DNA from: Synechococcus sp. CBW1108
GTDB taxonomy: Bacteria > Cyanobacteriota > Cyanobacteriia > PCC-6307 > Cyanobiaceae
Length of the DNA: 64,000 nucleotides
Reading direction: 5' to 3'
Assembly (NCBI RefSeq): GCF_015840335.1
Contig: NZ_CP060395.1
Span: forward strand, 2,517,277-2,581,276
The notes under the pieces are model-generated. The model made no database searches and was not told the DNA's origin. It saw nothing but the letters and a program-made list of their open reading frames with translations. The position numbers and the translations under genes were made by a program. Below are positions 764 through 60,407 of the stretch, piece after piece. The first letter of the stretch is position 1, and every line of letters starts with the position of its first letter.

Positions 764-1549
764 AGGCCGGATGTGCTGGAGTGAATTTACAGTGATACTT
801 AATGGGTGTTGCGTCCTGAGGGGGGCAGGGGATAAGTTTCATCAAATATGTCAAATATCTGCGGAATTATGTTTATTAGGACAAAAAGAAAGAGTATGCT
901 TAAAAAGTACATGTATGCTTTGCCAGAGGCTAGCAATGTCGTTAAGATCATCTTATCGAGAGTTTGCCACCTATTTTCGCGCACTTCTGGAGATTGGCAA
1001 GCCCTCACTACTCCGGTCTGGGACCTTCTAACCGCCAGGGGCCGGTACGGAGCGCCGCTAACATAATCCTTGAAGAGCTCTTGTCGGTTTGATTTCAGTC
1101 GGCGTCTCGGGTAGTGATTGCTTGAGCTGTCGGCGCGCATTGACCCTACCTACAATCCAGCTAAGCAGATCCGGTGCTAGATCAATCACGGTCACCCTCA
1201 CCCTGCGCTAGCAGGGCCGCGATGTCTGGCAGTTCCTTGAAACTGCCTGGGTACCCATCACCACGGTTGGTCGATGCCATACTTGTTACCTTATTACTTA
1301 GGTCATATGAACAAACAAAGAGTCGTCTCTGACGGCTCAGCGGTAGGCTATAAAGTTTGCATTTGAACGGCGACAAGTTCCGCTTTCTGAATGGATACGG
1401 GAAATTTTGGAAGTGGTTCTGATCATCTTCTGGAGCCCAGTCAAATGTTGCACTTGATGTCATCATTCTTCTCCAATGTGCTATGTGGATTCATGCAAAA
1501 TTGAACTTTGCCTAATGTTTCTTGTCGGTATTATCTGCATATGTGCTAC
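764..1549. other. Lower-GC stretch with no recognised gene
   Basis: This 0.8 kb gap between the IS256 end and the glycosyltransferase is visibly richer in A and T than the core genome. A 94-codon minus-strand frame (1182-1466) ends where another frame opens with GTG, so the two overlap by a few bases. I recognise no domain in either. They may be small genes or remnants. No RNA gene or clear promoter was recognised. Confidence 0.4.
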
Positions 1550-2785
1550 TTAACTTATTTTGCCTAGTCCCTCGAGTAAATCAGCTTCCATTTTTTCCAG
1601 TAAGGTTTTGCGGCAATATCTCTCCTCAGCCAGCTGCCTCCCCTTGCGACCTAAGCGTGTTCTTAGTTCCCTATCCTTCGACAGCCGTCTAATCGCTGTT
1701 GCAAAGCCTTTTGCATCCCCCGGTTCGACGCGAATCCCTGCTTCTTCAGTCAGCCCTCCTAATTCACTGCTGGCCGGGGAGCTGGCTACCACAGGCCGGC
1801 CACTGGCAAGTATCCCTAATAGCTTTGATGGCATTACCAAGTCTGCTGCATCTGCTTTTTGTGGTAGCAAATGTACATCGGCGAGGTTTAGCCAGTCATT
1901 TATTCTTTTTGCAGGCTGCAAGGGCAATAGCATTACATTGCTTAGACCCTCAACGTATCTTTTTAGCAATGCTTTAGTGGGACCTTCTCCTGCAAGTAGC
2001 CAAACTATGCCTGGATTATCGGCCAATATATGAATAGCTTTGGCCAGTACGTCAAGACCCTGCTTGTTATTCATAGAGCCTGAGTATAGTAGCACAATTG
2101 TCTCATTGCTAATATTTAGCTCACGTCGGTAGGGATTGCTTACTCGCTGTATCCCCTCCTGTGGTTGGATTGCTTTTAGATCAACCCAATTAGGCAGCAT
2201 GTATGCCCTCTTTGGTTGGACCCCTTTGGCGATCACCCTTTGTCGCATCGCCTCACTGATTGTGCTGACTTTGCTGAATGCTTGCAGGGTGCTGCTTTCC
2301 CAGGTTTCGGCGAGTCTCCTGATCCATCTGCCCTTCAGCATCCCTAGTTCAAAAGCTGCATCTAGCTCGAAGTCTTGAATATGAAGCCAGGTTGTTGTGG
2401 CCACGCCACAAAGTTTCCCAAGCAGCAGTGCTCCCGGTGCACAGAAGAAGGCAGGCGCCACTGTGATCACTACATCCGGTCGCCAAATCCGTTGGGCCAG
2501 CAGTACTGGCAGGCTACTGAGCGCAAAGCTAGCCAAGTGAATTAATCTGCTAAGTCCACTAGGGCGGCTTGGCACCCATAGGGGGCAGCGCCAGATAGCA
2601 ACTTCCCGCCTTAACTCTTTCCGGTAGCGGTTGGCGACAGCTCGCCATTGAGGAAAGTAAGGTGGAGCGGTTATGACACGCACCTCATGACCCCTGCCAG
2701 CCAGCCATTCAGCCAGCTCACCGCTGTATTTACCTATGCCTACTGGCTCGGGTGAGTAGTTCAGGCCATAGAGAAGTATTTTCAT
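1550..2785 (-). CDS. Family 4 glycosyltransferase, WcaI-like
   Basis: This is a predicted sugar transferase for surface or extracellular polysaccharide assembly, acting in the cytoplasm or at the membrane face. The 411-residue protein starts MKILLYGLNYSPEPVGIGKY, which is the typical N-terminus of WcaI-like colanic-acid glycosyltransferases. It has a GT-B layout: a donor-side motif around LLYSGSMNNKQGLDVLAKAI and the C-terminal nucleotide-sugar block LVMPSKLLGILASGRPVVAS. The length fits the family. It lies in the lower-GC accessory stretch next to a decayed polysaccharide-esterase gene, which suggests a former capsule or O-antigen-type locus. The acceptor sugar cannot be told from sequence. 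Confidence 0.85.
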   Translation of the reverse strand: MKILLYGLNYSPEPVGIGKYSGELAEWLAGRGHEVRVITAPPYFPQWRAVANRYRKELRREVAIWRCPLWVPSRPSGLSRLIHLASFALSSLPVLLAQRIWRPDVVITVAPAFFCAPGALLLGKLCGVATTTWLHIQDFELDAAFELGMLKGRWIRRLAETWESSTLQAFSKVSTISEAMRQRVIAKGVQPKRAYMLPNWVDLKAIQPQEGIQRVSNPYRRELNISNETIVLLYSGSMNNKQGLDVLAKAIHILADNPGIVWLLAGEGPTKALLKRYVEGLSNVMLLPLQPAKRINDWLNLADVHLLPQKADAADLVMPSKLLGILASGRPVVASSPASSELGGLTEEAGIRVEPGDAKGFATAIRRLSKDRELRTRLGRKGRQLAEERYCRKTLLEKMEADLLEGLGKIS

Positions 2786-51093: not shown

Positions 51094-51111
51094 GGATGAA
51101 GCCAGATAGCA

Positions 51112-51240
51112 TTGACATCCCGGTTTCGGTGGGGAACAGCCACCGGAGGTAAGGGGGAAAGTCCGGTGTGAATCCGGCACTGTCCCGCAGCTGTGAAGGC
51201 GTGTCCCCGGACCGTCCAGTCAGAACGCCCGCCGGTTTTG
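51112..51240 (+). promoter_or_regulatory. Cobalamin (B12) riboswitch upstream of hupE-cobW
   Basis: The 5' UTR carries the class's landmarks in order: a paired GGTGGGG/CACC arm, the core GGGAAAGTCCGGTGTGAATC, CCCGCAGCTGTGAAGG, and the B12-box AGTCAGAACGCCCGCCG (51218-51234). The first coding ATG follows about 30 bp later (51267). It would switch off hupE-cobW when cobalamin is abundant, which fits a cobalt-uptake role. Confidence 0.9.
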
Positions 51241-51266
51241 TTCTTCCTACGGCGCGGACCGGCTCC

Positions 51267-51956
51267 ATGAAAGTTTCCACGCACCAGCCCTCCGGCCTGA
51301 GCGCCCCAGGGCTGCCCAGTCCTTCACTTTTCAGTTCTTTACTTTTCAGCCCCTCACTTTTCAGGCCTTACCTTTGGCTTGCAGCAGCCCTGGTGGCTTC
51401 GCCGCTGCTGTTCAGCTCGCCTGCTCTGGCCCACCACTTCGCCGATCTGGGCCAGATGAAGCCCACCTTGAGCAACGGTGTGCTGAGCGGGCTGGCCCAC
51501 CCCCTGCTGGGCCCAGATCACCTCCTTTTCCTGCTGGCACTCTCCCTGGTGGCTCTGCAGTGTCGTTGGGGTTGGGCCCTGGGTTTGCTCCTCGTTGGTT
51601 TGCTTGGTGGGGCAGCAGGTCTGGCCTGGCCTGGCCTGCCGGGGGCCGAGGCGCTGGTGGCCTGCACCCTGGTTGTGGAGGCCCTGGTGCTACTGCGCCG
51701 CCTGCCCCCAGTGTTGCTGTTGCCTGCGATTGCTCTGCATGGCTACGTGCTGAGCGTGCCGGTGTTCGGCTGGTCAACCATGCCGGTGGCTGCCTATGGG
51801 GCCGGACTGCTGCTTAGCCAGGGCAGCCTGCTACTGGTTGCCCTCTGGTTGCTGCGCCCGATCGCCAAACGCCTCTCCCCAGCGAATTTGCGCTGGCTGG
51901 CCCTGGCCCTGGCCGCCTGCGGAACCACCTGGGCTTTCTCAGCCTGGGCAGGCTGA
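51267..51956 (+). CDS. hupE: HupE/UreJ-family metal transporter (probable cobalt uptake)
   Basis: The 229-residue membrane protein has a signal peptide (cleaved near ALA|HHFADLG) and about six spans. It contains the family motif His78-Pro-x4-Asp84-His85 (LAHPLLGPDHLLFLLAL). HupE/UreJ proteins carry nickel or cobalt; the cobalamin riboswitch upstream points to cobalt. The N-terminus contains a 15-bp tandem repeat, 3 copies. The ATG at 51267 was chosen. cobW follows after 1 bp. Confidence 0.88.
   Translation: MKVSTHQPSGLSAPGLPSPSLFSSLLFSPSLFRPYLWLAAALVASPLLFSSPALAHHFADLGQMKPTLSNGVLSGLAHPLLGPDHLLFLLALSLVALQCRWGWALGLLLVGLLGGAAGLAWPGLPGAEALVACTLVVEALVLLRRLPPVLLLPAIALHGYVLSVPVFGWSTMPVAAYGAGLLLSQGSLLLVALWLLRPIAKRLSPANLRWLALALAACGTTWAFSAWAG
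51321..51365 (+). repeat. Three copies of a 15-bp tandem repeat within hupE
   Basis: ACTTTTCAG occurs at 51326, 51341 and 51356, exactly 15 bp apart. The in-frame period of 15 bp encodes pentapeptides close to PSLFS in the signal-peptide region. The period preserves the frame, so copy number could change by slippage without a frameshift. Confidence 0.85.
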
Positions 51957-51957
51957 G

Positions 51958-53046
51958 ATGCAGGCAGTAACAAAACGCCTTCCCGTCACCGTGGTGACTG
52001 GCTTTTTGGGCGCTGGCAAAACAACCCTGCTGCGCCACCTGCTTCTCCATGGCGGCCAGCGGCTGGCCGTGCTGGTCAATGAGTTCGGGGAGGTGGGCAT
52101 CGATGGGGCACTCCTGCGCAGCTGTGGCTTTTGTCCTGATGAGGAGCTCGATTCCAGGCTGGTGGAACTGGCCAACGGCTGCCTCTGCTGCACGGTTCAA
52201 GACGAGTTCCTGCCCACCATGGAACGGCTGCTGGAGCGGGCTGACAGCCTTGACGGCATCGTGGTTGAAACCAGTGGTTTAGCCCTTCCAGAACCACTGA
52301 TCGCGGCCTTGAATTGGCCCGACATCCGTACCCGGATCAGGCTCAACGGGGTGGTGGCCGTCGTCGACGGCGAGGCCCTGGCCGCTGGTGCGGTGGTGGC
52401 CAACCCGGCCGCCCTAGAGGCCCAGCGCCTCTCCGATCCCAGCCTGGACCACGCCAGTGATATCGATGAACTCTTCGGCGAACAGCTGGAAGCGGCCGAT
52501 CTGGTTTTGATCAGCAGGGCGGACTGTCTCTCCAAGGATGCCCTTGAGGGGGTCGAACGGCAGCTAGCCCCCCGTCTTCGCTCCGGCGCCGCCGTGGTTC
52601 CGATGGGGCGGGGGGAGGTATCTCCCGAACTGGTTTTGGGCATGGCCCTCTCCAGCAGCCCAGCAGCTGGAGAGGGCCACGACCACAGCCACGGGGGCGA
52701 CACCCACGAGCACAGCCACGTGCACAGCCACGTTGCAATTGAATCGGTGGCCCTGCAGCTAGGCGGAATATTTGAGCGCCCAGCCCTGGAAGAAAAGTTG
52801 CACCACCTGCTGCTCCAGCCTGGACTGATCAGGGTCAAGGGCCTGTTGTGGAGCCCCGGCAAGGCCCGTCCCCTGCAGATCCAGGCCGTGGGCGCCCGCC
52901 TGGAGTGCTGGTATGAAGCTGGGGCCATAGGCTCCCAGTCCGGTCAGACGGGGCGATTACCCGGCCTGGAGTTGGTGTTTCTGGGCTTCCAACTCAATCG
53001 CCCAGCCATCGAAGCATTGCTGCTCGAGGGGGTTACACCGCCCTGA
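51958..53046 (+). CDS. cobW: CobW-family metallochaperone GTPase
   Basis: The 362-residue G3E GTPase has P-loop GFLGAGKTTLL (about 15-25), Cys75-x-Cys77-Cys78 in ELANGCLCCTV for metal binding, and a His-rich loop (HDHSHGGDTHEHSHVHSH) for metal storage. CobW proteins deliver Co(II) for cobalamin, while related ones handle zinc. The riboswitch and HupE upstream favour cobalt here. The C-terminal domain (GIFERPALEEKLHHLLL) is typical. It begins right after hupE. Confidence 0.92.
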   Translation: MQAVTKRLPVTVVTGFLGAGKTTLLRHLLLHGGQRLAVLVNEFGEVGIDGALLRSCGFCPDEELDSRLVELANGCLCCTVQDEFLPTMERLLERADSLDGIVVETSGLALPEPLIAALNWPDIRTRIRLNGVVAVVDGEALAAGAVVANPAALEAQRLSDPSLDHASDIDELFGEQLEAADLVLISRADCLSKDALEGVERQLAPRLRSGAAVVPMGRGEVSPELVLGMALSSSPAAGEGHDHSHGGDTHEHSHVHSHVAIESVALQLGGIFERPALEEKLHHLLLQPGLIRVKGLLWSPGKARPLQIQAVGARLECWYEAGAIGSQSGQTGRLPGLELVFLGFQLNRPAIEALLLEGVTPP

Positions 53047-53352: not shown

Positions 53353-53424
53353 GTATGCCGTCCCGGAAATAACAGATAGAATTCGGAGTGTCACCCGAGG
53401 TGCCCCTTGGCGCTTGGACGTCCG

Positions 53425-54447
53425 ATGCCTCCGCTGGTTCTCAGCGAAGAAGAGGTTCAGCATTTGCAGGCCCTTGCCCATTCCCGATCCCTGCCGCATT
53501 CGATCGTTCAACGCGCCCAGATCGTCCTGGCCTGCGGCGCCGGTGAAAGCAACACCGCTATCGCCAAGCGAATGGGCCTGACGGGGATGACCGTCGGCAA
53601 GTGGCGCAAGCGCTACCGGGATCTCGGTCTGGAAGGGCTGCACGACGAGCTCCGCCCCGGCCGGCCGCGCACCTACGAGGACGACAAGGTTGCTGAGGTG
53701 ATCAACCGAGCCCTGCAGACCAAACCCGCCGATGGCAGCACCCAGTGGTCAGCGCGTTCTCTCGCAGCCGCTACAGGAATTTCAAAAACCACCGTTCACC
53801 GCTGGCTGCAAACCTTCTCGGTCCAGCCGCACCGGCAGAAATCTTTCAAGCTCTCCACCGATCCGTTCTTTGTCGAGAAGGTTCGCGACATCGTCGGCCT
53901 GTATCTCAATCCACCCGAGAACGCTGTCGTGCTCTGCGTAGACGAGAAGACGCAGATTCAGGCTCTGGACAGGACGCAGCCGCTGCTGCCCATGGGATTG
54001 GGCTACGTGGAAGGTGTGACGCATGACTACATCCGCCACGGCACCACCACCCTGTTTGCAGCCCTGGATGTGGCCACCGGTGCGGTGATCGCCGAGTGCA
54101 AGCCGAGGCACCGGCACCAGGAGTTCCTGAGCTTCCTGCGGCGGATCTACAAGGAGGTGCCCAAGGATCTGGAGCTGCACCTGATCGTCGACAACTACTG
54201 CACCCACAAGCACGCAAAAGTGAAGGCCTGGCTGGTGCAGCGACCGCGCTTTCACGTCCACTACACACCCACCTATGCCTCCTGGCTTAACCAGGTGGAG
54301 CGCTGGTTTGGACTGATAACCCAGAAGGCCATCCGACGTGGCAGTTTCTCCAGCGTTAAAGAGCTGATCAACAAAATTGAGGGCACCTCGAAAAATACGA
54401 CCAGCCCTTGCGTTGAGGCGACAATAGCTTATAATTTGGATAGTTAA
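53425..54447 (+). pseudogene. IS630-family transposase, truncated by the IS5-like insertion
   Basis: Of the transposase, the HTH part (TAIAKRMGLTGMTVGKWRKR) and the DDE core are readable: CVDEKTQIQALDR, LHLIVDNYCTHKHAKV and PTYASWLNQVERWFG. The last 40 or so residues are replaced by codons from the IS5-like end. The displaced C-terminus resumes at 55629 (LFVAAYDKTQ), then needs a 1-nt shift to read PFKWTATADSILEKLQRLCS. The ATG at 53425 was chosen; the TTG at 53407 is an alternative. Confidence 0.85.
54408..54435 (+). promoter_or_regulatory. Sigma-70-like promoter of the IS5-like transposase
   Basis: TTGCGT (54408-54413) and TATAAT (54430-54435) are separated by 16 bp and lie about 25 bp before the transposase ATG. 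Copy 1 has TTGCGC and TAAAAT at the same place, a weaker match. Confidence 0.65.
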
Positions 54448-54460
54448 TTGCATACCTGGT

Positions 54461-55495
54461 ATGGGCCAGAGAGGCTTCTGGGACGAGCAGCAGAGGGTTG
54501 AAAAGCTCAAAACTAAAAAACCTGTTCTTGAGCGACTTTCCCAGTCGATTCCTTGGGAATCATTTCGCCCACTGCTCGAAAGAGGTTATGCGCAAGAGCG
54601 GAAAAGCAATGCTGGTCGGCGGAGAATTGATCCTCTGATCCTCTTCAAAATGCTGGTGCTCCAACAGCTTTTCAATTTGAGCGATGATGACACTGAGTTC
54701 CAGGTAAATGATCGCCGTTCTTTTGAAGAGTTTGTTGGCTTAGGCGTAATGAACGATATTCCCGATGCTACTACTATCGCCTTTTTTAGAGAAAGGCTTC
54801 GTAAGGCTGGGGTAATCGAAGAGCTGTTTGAAAAGTTTGAGGCCTATCTCCGGTCCCAAGGCCTCGAAGCCCGTGGCGGGCAGATAATTGATGCAACGTT
54901 GGTTCCAGTGCCACGGCAGCGGAATAGCAGAGAAGACAACAAGGAGATTAAAGAGAATCGCATGCCTGAAGGATGGGACGAAAACCCAAATCGATTGCAG
55001 CAAAAGGACTTAGATGCGCGATGGGTTAAAAAGAACGGCATCAATCACTATGGCTACAAGAACAGTATCTGTATCGACGTTGAACATGGATTTATCAGAC
55101 GCTATGCCGTGACACCGGCCAATATCCATGACAGTCAGATGCTGCCGATGCTCCTCGATCCTGAGAACACAGATGATTATGTTTGGGCAGATTCTGCCTT
55201 TGCAGGCGAGCGCTTTGAAGACCTACTGGATCTTGGCGGTTTTGAAAGTTGCATTCACGAAAAAGGCAGCCGCAATCACCCGCTAAGCGACGCAGCCAAA
55301 GAGCGTAACCGTATTAAATCAGCAATTAGAGCTTGTGTGGAACATGTTTTTGGCTGCATGACCATGTCTATGGGTGGCAAGATGACTAGAAAGATTGGGC
55401 TTGAGAAAAACAAAGCATGGTGGGGTCTCAAGAATCTGACATTTAACTTCTTGCGATATCTTCTAAGAGCAAATCGTGCATTTGCACTCGCATGA
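54461..55495 (+). CDS. IS5-family-like transposase, apparently complete
   Basis: The 344-residue protein starts MGQRGFWDEQQRVEKLKTKK and has the N-terminal region RRRIDPLILFKMLVLQQLFN. The DDE residues are found in GGQIIDATLVPVPRQ, WADSAFAGERFEDLL and ACVEHVFGCMTMSMGGKMTR. There is no interruption, unlike copy 1. It should move its own element, and its ends are close enough to those of copy 1 to act on it too. Transcription would start at the promoter just upstream. Confidence 0.92.
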   Translation: MGQRGFWDEQQRVEKLKTKKPVLERLSQSIPWESFRPLLERGYAQERKSNAGRRRIDPLILFKMLVLQQLFNLSDDDTEFQVNDRRSFEEFVGLGVMNDIPDATTIAFFRERLRKAGVIEELFEKFEAYLRSQGLEARGGQIIDATLVPVPRQRNSREDNKEIKENRMPEGWDENPNRLQQKDLDARWVKKNGINHYGYKNSICIDVEHGFIRRYAVTPANIHDSQMLPMLLDPENTDDYVWADSAFAGERFEDLLDLGGFESCIHEKGSRNHPLSDAAKERNRIKSAIRACVEHVFGCMTMSMGGKMTRKIGLEKNKAWWGLKNLTFNFLRYLLRANRAFALA

Positions 55496-59843: not shown

Positions 59844-60407
59844 TCAGATCTCTGGAACGGCAAGGCTATGGCTGCGGAGGTCAAGGGCCCGGCCTGCGAT
59901 CACCAGCCACAGGCCGCTGCATAGGGGAGCCAGTTGCTGTTCCAGGCTGCCAAGCCGATCTCGAAACAGGCCACCGATAGCCGTTGGCGGCACCACCCCC
60001 CAACCGGTCTGCTCACTGACCAGCACGGCCGGCATGGGCAGGGCAAGCAGGCAGTCGTAGAGGTTGGAGCAGCGCTGCTGCCAGTCCACGGCGTCGAGCT
60101 CGAGGCCGGCCGCCACCCAGGTGCCCAGGGAGTCCACCAGGGCCAGCCCCGGGGGGCTCAGGCTGGCCAGGCTCTCGGGCAGGGCTGCTCCCACCTCCCT
60201 GGTGCTCCAGTTTGGCGGGCGCCGTTGGCGATGGGCCAGGACCCGGGCCAGCCAGGCAGGGTCTTCAGCTGAGGCGCCAGGTCCGGTGGCCAGGTATGTG
60301 ACCGCCAGACCGGAGCGAAGGGCCAGATATTCGGCCCAGCGACTTTTGCCACTGCGGGCAGGTCCGAGAACCAGATGGCAGCCCAGCAGGGCCTCAGCCT
60401 CCACCAT
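59844..60407 (-). CDS. cobU: Adenosylcobinamide kinase/guanylyltransferase
   Basis: CobU phosphorylates adenosylcobinamide and adds GMP in the lower-loop assembly of cobalamin. The 187-residue enzyme has P-loop GPARSGKS (15-22) and YLATGPG, TREVGAALPESL and VSEQTGWGVVPPTAIGGLFR, with LGSLEQQLAP typical of the family. It overlaps pxcA by 14 bp. It fits the cobalt-linked riboswitch operon 8 kb away, but I see no riboswitch upstream of it. Confidence 0.94.
   Translation of the reverse strand: MVEAEALLGCHLVLGPARSGKSRWAEYLALRSGLAVTYLATGPGASAEDPAWLARVLAHRQRRPPNWSTREVGAALPESLASLSPPGLALVDSLGTWVAAGLELDAVDWQQRCSNLYDCLLALPMPAVLVSEQTGWGVVPPTAIGGLFRDRLGSLEQQLAPLCSGLWLVIAGRALDLRSHSLAVPEI

Follow-up and report, generated by a model that had tools for sequence, protein, structure and literature searches.

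According to the accessible parts of the papers cited here and below, hupE genes of marine cyanobacteria stand under a B12 riboswitch, and the HupE protein of Synechocystis has a cobalt-related role (PMC4284471, PMC7689651). For cobW, 54 of 65 orthologues analysed were placed in B12-regulated clusters in 2009; the text available from that paper describes cyanobacterial cobW as neither clustered with B12 genes nor regulated by a riboswitch (PMC2770081). A riboswitch, a cobalt permease and CobW are united in an adenosylcobalamin-riboswitch unit of Novosphingobium (PMC7689651); metagenomic B12-elements precede cobW, hupE and cobU, with cobW and hupE both among the genes placed first, without operon or taxon in the accessible text (PMC2211319); and a table in PMC11633204 gives UreJ-HupE (AM1_5965) and CobW (AM1_5964) as consecutive genes of Acaryochloris. 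Nearly all of 132 picocyanobacterial genomes have both cobW and cobN (PMC9361551), and a cobalamin riboswitch that precedes a B12-uptake cluster in Anabaena has been put to the test by cobalt starvation (PMC10878165). Our literature search, mostly among papers open without subscription, returned no description of a cyanobacterial riboswitch-hupE-cobW unit and none of the start-codon hairpin reported below.

Such a unit is present in the window, the 64-kb stretch of Synechococcus sp. CBW1108 DNA analysed here (Table 1). It shares with the marine cyanobacterial and Synechocystis systems the aptamer before hupE and, likened at the family level, the HupE/UreJ permease itself, whereas cobW as a second gene goes unmentioned in the accessible parts of those reports (PMC4284471, PMC7689651). 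It has a CobW under a B12 riboswitch in common with the proteobacterial cobW clusters, but those are biosynthesis clusters (PMC2770081). All three kinds of part recur in the Novosphingobium unit, where, however, the permease is a NiCoT protein and a TonB (outer-membrane) receptor is included (PMC7689651). We read the locus as a B12-repressed cobalt uptake-and-delivery operon, with a probability of roughly 85%; the roles of its parts are predicted from family membership and conserved linkage. The unit is real and ordinary in kind, and it occurs in other cyanobacteria as well. B12 feedback on cobalt uptake is a principle already well known, and the unit and its start-codon hairpin are modest extensions of that theme.

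Table 1. Features of the riboswitch-hupE-cobW locus and its downstream surroundings (window coordinates)
Feature	Position	Strand	Basis or remark
Putative -10 element TAGCAT	51107-51112	+	inferred; at 5' edge of aptamer
Cobalamin riboswitch aptamer, RF00174	51104-51250	+	Rfam, 56.8 bits, gathering score 31.5, E 1.9e-11
Small hairpin ACGG-CGCGGA-CCGG, probable expression platform	51249-51262	+	leader comparison
hupE, HupE/UreJ-family metal permease, probable cobalt importer	51267-51956	+	PF04955 and translation
cobW, G3E GTPase, probable Co(II) chaperone for CobN	51958-53046	+	TIGR02475, PF02492, PF07683, translation
Transposase gene, DDE_3 with HTH_32	53407-54447	+	directly behind cobW
Transposase gene, DDE_Tnp_1 with DUF772	54461-55495	+	behind first transposase gene
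CobU	59847-60407	minus	PF02283, 147.5 bits

The leader had been annotated initially as a cobalamin riboswitch, and the Rfam search bears this out: the RF00174 match exceeds its gathering score and spans the whole model (positions 1-189). The locus had been placed correctly, although the start given for it, 51112, falls 8 nt inside the match. Only one other Rfam match, a tRNA, was returned for the window. When the whole genome (3.23 Mb, single contig) was searched with RF00174, two matches at E <= 0.001 were obtained, both above the cut-off. The second riboswitch (L002; C1:86853-87000, minus strand, 43.4 bits) precedes a HupE paralogue (match 86245-86778) with no CobW match behind it, and its leader contains a start-codon hairpin of the same type as that of the window.

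A candidate for the promoter was found at the 5' edge of the aptamer. In leaders positioned by covariance-model coordinates, TANNNT occurs within the first 16 nt of 34 out of 36 (the window, 34 hupE-cobW leaders and L002), compared with 3 of 1039 control windows; the two misses are L002 and L104, a leader cut at its 5' end. An earlier count with a poor anchor, in which many rows were mis-anchored, gave 15 of 58 usable rows (of 80). A sigma-70 scan of the region returned no promoters, and TAGCAT has no -35-like partner there. The recurrence of TANNNT at the aptamer edge suggests a transcription start at the closing stem of the aptamer.

The genes behind the leader encode, as had been proposed, a HupE-type transporter and a CobW chaperone, with PF04955 and TIGR02475 both above their cut-offs. 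The 229 aa product of hupE matches Pfam HupE_UreJ (PF04955) at 66.3 bits (cut-off 23) and has no match in NCBIfam; its HPLLGPDH fits the HPXXGXDH signature of HupE/UreJ permeases (PMC7689651). Because that Pfam score is modest and many HupE/UreJ proteins carry nickel and are encoded next to urease and hydrogenase genes (PMC7689651, PMC4284471), this HupE might be taken to import nickel in place of cobalt, its riboswitch-cobW pairing being secondary. We regard this as very unlikely, given that at least 111 of the 132 aptamers listed in 121 genomes of the window's family have a HupE at most 500 nt downstream, that the genome has no CbiM match, and that a Synechocystis hupE mutant is rescued by cobalt or methionine (PMC7689651, PMC4284471). 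By analogy with such relatives, the HupE of the window would transport cobalt. Early in the gene (51326-51364), ACTTTTCAG occurs three times at 15-nt spacing, and these repeats encode a repetitive N-terminal stretch (SLFSSLLFSPSLF) ahead of a signal-like hydrophobic segment.

A single base separates the hupE stop from the cobW start (TGA G ATG). The 362 aa CobW product matches the Pfam domains cobW (PF02492, 169.7 bits) and CobW_C (PF07683, 46.8 bits), and its translation contains a P-loop (GFLGAGKTT), the CxCC motif (as GCLCC) and a His-rich stretch. It passes the NCBIfam CobW equivalog TIGR02475 narrowly, by ~5 bits (337.5 against 332.1), and cyanobacterial genomes often encode several COG0523 proteins (PMC2770081), two points in favour of a ZigA/YciC-type zinc chaperone. 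Such an identity is very unlikely in view of a score of 133 bits with the ZigA model (cut-off 600), of the position of the gene behind a B12 riboswitch, and of the fact that this is the only strong TIGR02475 match of the genome, as it is in 105 of the 106 family genomes that have one. Taken as CobW, the protein probably works with GTP to supply Co(II); CobW has been described as a Co(II) supplier (PMC7689651).

Other cobamide genes of the genome agree with this assignment of the metal. A type I cobaltochelatase, CobN (TIGR02257, 1630 bits, cut-off 822), and MetH (1431 bits, above cut-off) are encoded, and searches of the genome for CbiM and NrdJ_Z gave no match. The matches to CobN and MetH, with none to CbiM, fit HupE as the cobalt entry route, and they are consistent with a cell in which cobalt is inserted late in cobamide synthesis, MetH is at least one user of the product, and the cobalt supply depends on HupE. 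A second CobN-like match (G000:C1:318566-321796) is sub-threshold, at 608 bits versus 822, and is presumably the magnesium chelatase subunit ChlH. The initial annotation also mentioned a CobU about 7 kb away. The gene is there, at 6.8 kb, but its nearness was rejected as a sign of linkage because it lies on the opposite strand with two transposase genes, which we take to be IS630-like and IS5/IS1182-like, respectively, among the genes between.

Conservation of the unit was followed from close relatives to the class. A comparison of HupE found eight loci, with Synechococcus sp. CS-1331 (93%) as the nearest named relative and other Synechococcus, Cyanobium and cyanobacterial bins as the others; CobW is encoded at all eight (58-96% identity). 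Across the 121 family genomes, the aptamer is matched in 88, HupE in 109 and the CobW model, at any strength, in 116. Neighbours were counted from the 132 listed aptamers, 150 listed HupE rows and 107 strong CobW rows, all scoring at least 279 bits; CobW rows at ~150 bits or below were not counted. Among the matches listed, 36 HupE-CobW neighbours occur in 35 of the 121 genomes, and every one of the 36 has an aptamer upstream, in agreement with the proposal that the gene pair is tied to a riboswitch. The strong CobW matches are distributed over 106 genomes, all with exactly one except G119, whose two copies lie on separate contigs; the cobW behind hupE is therefore the only strong CobW of its genome and not an extra copy. 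Among the matches listed, 71 of the 107 strong CobW rows have no HupE beside them. Most family genomes that have a strong CobW match carry the gene apart from hupE, so the hupE-cobW coupling is not obligatory.

The class sample (106 genomes, 9 of them from the window's family) was surveyed with all 81 HupE and 98 CobW rows and with 58 aptamer rows picked by eye on contigs bearing HupE or CobW, so that its aptamer counts are lower bounds. HupE-CobW neighbours are present in 24 of these genomes, with an aptamer upstream in at least 17; for the 97 genomes outside the family the corresponding numbers are 23 and at least 16, and at least 13 further class genomes have an aptamer within 2 kb upstream of a cobW that has no HupE neighbour. 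With the riboswitch-hupE-cobW arrangement in at least 35 of 121 family genomes and at least 16 of 97 others of the class, the 2009 statement that places cyanobacterial cobW outside riboswitch control (PMC2770081, in its accessible text) needs to be updated and is corrected here. The arrangement suggests that one B12 signal governs both cobalt import and the transfer of the metal to the chelatase in many cyanobacteria.

A CobW tree of 101 proteins was used to trace the operonic state (left out were L107, one of the two copies of G119, as well as G002, G021, G067, G117 and G049 [L075]). All 35 operonic copies in the tree fall within a single group that comprises 51 rows and is well supported (100/100). 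Within the tree the state requires at the fewest 10 changes, 7 of them forced by starred branches, compared with a shuffled mean of about 29. A single origin is not supported by these numbers, and the tree points to repeated gain or loss.

Comparison of leaders reveals a small hairpin that follows the B12 box and precedes the start codon, present in 76 of 80 distinct leaders with a six-base loop of CG(C/A/T)GGA or CTCGGA; 0.77% of 4000 dinucleotide shuffles carry it, or 6.5% if any NNNGGA loop is allowed. The leaders were collected by a sequence pattern from 94 loci, of which 13 have duplicate leaders and one, the cbiM locus L057, yielded none. An ATG follows the hairpin after 1-11 nt in 71 of 75 leaders with hairpin. 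Stem variants including CCGG/CCGG, TCGA/TCGA, CTGG/CCAG and TCGG/CCGA constitute compensating changes; the inner pairs are kept in 76 of 76 by construction, because the search demanded GGA and three inner pairs. In the window, the outermost position of the stem holds a mismatched A and G, and the Shine-Dalgarno-like GGA of the loop stands 8 nt ahead of the hupE ATG, a spacing that makes control of translation start the likely mode of action of the riboswitch. The recurrent hairpin thus offers a concrete, testable platform. It is absent from the leaders L063, L065, L066 and L067, the first three of which precede CbiM, CbiN, CbiQ or ABC-transporter genes (cbiMNQO-type cobalt transporter); hupE-type and cbi-type leaders therefore seem to differ in platform, with a different one likely before cbiM/cbiN/cbiQ-type genes.

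The same operon and ligand could instead be served by transcription termination or RNA decay, with no hiding of the ribosome site. A terminator function has been postulated for a cobalamin riboswitch of Synechococcus sp. PCC 7002, and the transcript of an Anabaena riboswitch gene rises about 100-fold without cobalt (PMC10878165, accessible part). The GGA in CGCGGA is a short Shine-Dalgarno match only, and the hairpin is missing from both the minimum-energy structure and the centroid of the window leader. Folded alone, this leader is not more stable than shuffled sequences (z +1.34), 187 out of 200 of which fold at least as well. We nevertheless think this mode rather unlikely, since the hairpin lies 1-11 nt before the ATG in so many leaders and a terminator between the aptamer and the hupE ATG had to be rejected: no terminator-like site occurs there, and the nearest (51308-51323) is inside the hupE frame and has a weak tail. 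The region as a whole has 5 terminator-like sites, against a shuffle mean of 2.4.

Cobalamin riboswitches are described as forming an L5-L13 kissing loop (PMC9600662, accessible part). In the leaders compared by eye, no complementarity was seen between L5 and the loop of the hairpin, a possible P13 equivalent, and no aptamer partner for the loop was found. One conceivable alternative to such textbook docking is that the riboswitches of the family share one fixed, portable translational platform in which CGNGGA pairs with the UCCCG loop of P6 and not with L5, with cbiMNQO-type genes using another platform. If this were true, five pairs would form with N bulged, and B12 binding would hide the GGA directly. 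We consider it a long shot; no covariation backs the CGNGGA-UCCCG pairing, because the search pattern itself demanded part of the L6 motif and both loops hardly vary.

In the B12-repressed operon that we favour, transcription would probably start at the aptamer edge. When plentiful, adenosyl-(pseudo)cobalamin would bind the leader RNA, a response expected from relatives of this riboswitch, and the small hairpin of the bound leader would be held so that the ribosome could not use the GGA of its loop. No HupE would then be made, and CobW, with its start so close behind the hupE stop, would drop together with it by translational coupling. Under scarce B12 the ribosome site would open, HupE would import cobalt, and CobW with GTP would pass the metal to the CobN chelatase for synthesis of the cobamide that MetH needs. 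Such a switch probably lets the cell import cobalt only when B12 is scarce.

Several riboswitches of other genomes are arranged differently. Back-to-back pairs ~50 nt apart are found at G005:C16:30114-31705, G090:C1:1907769-1909372 and G113:C26:53739-55358, each member driving a HupE, in opposite directions. At L058 (riboswitch near 595, ORF 880-1917) and L072 (ORF 1257-2306, minus strand), a riboswitch with the GGA hairpin precedes a gene for a fatty-acid desaturase (PF00487; 103 and 106.5 bits, respectively), which may be the one it regulates; in G099 the desaturase-associated riboswitch stands behind a riboswitch-hupE unit. The cobalamin riboswitch L059 (G075:C1:1449985-1450135, minus strand) precedes the gene for an SLH-OprB porin (PF04966, 66 bits), perhaps with a short ORF in between; this porin is possibly an outer-membrane entry route.
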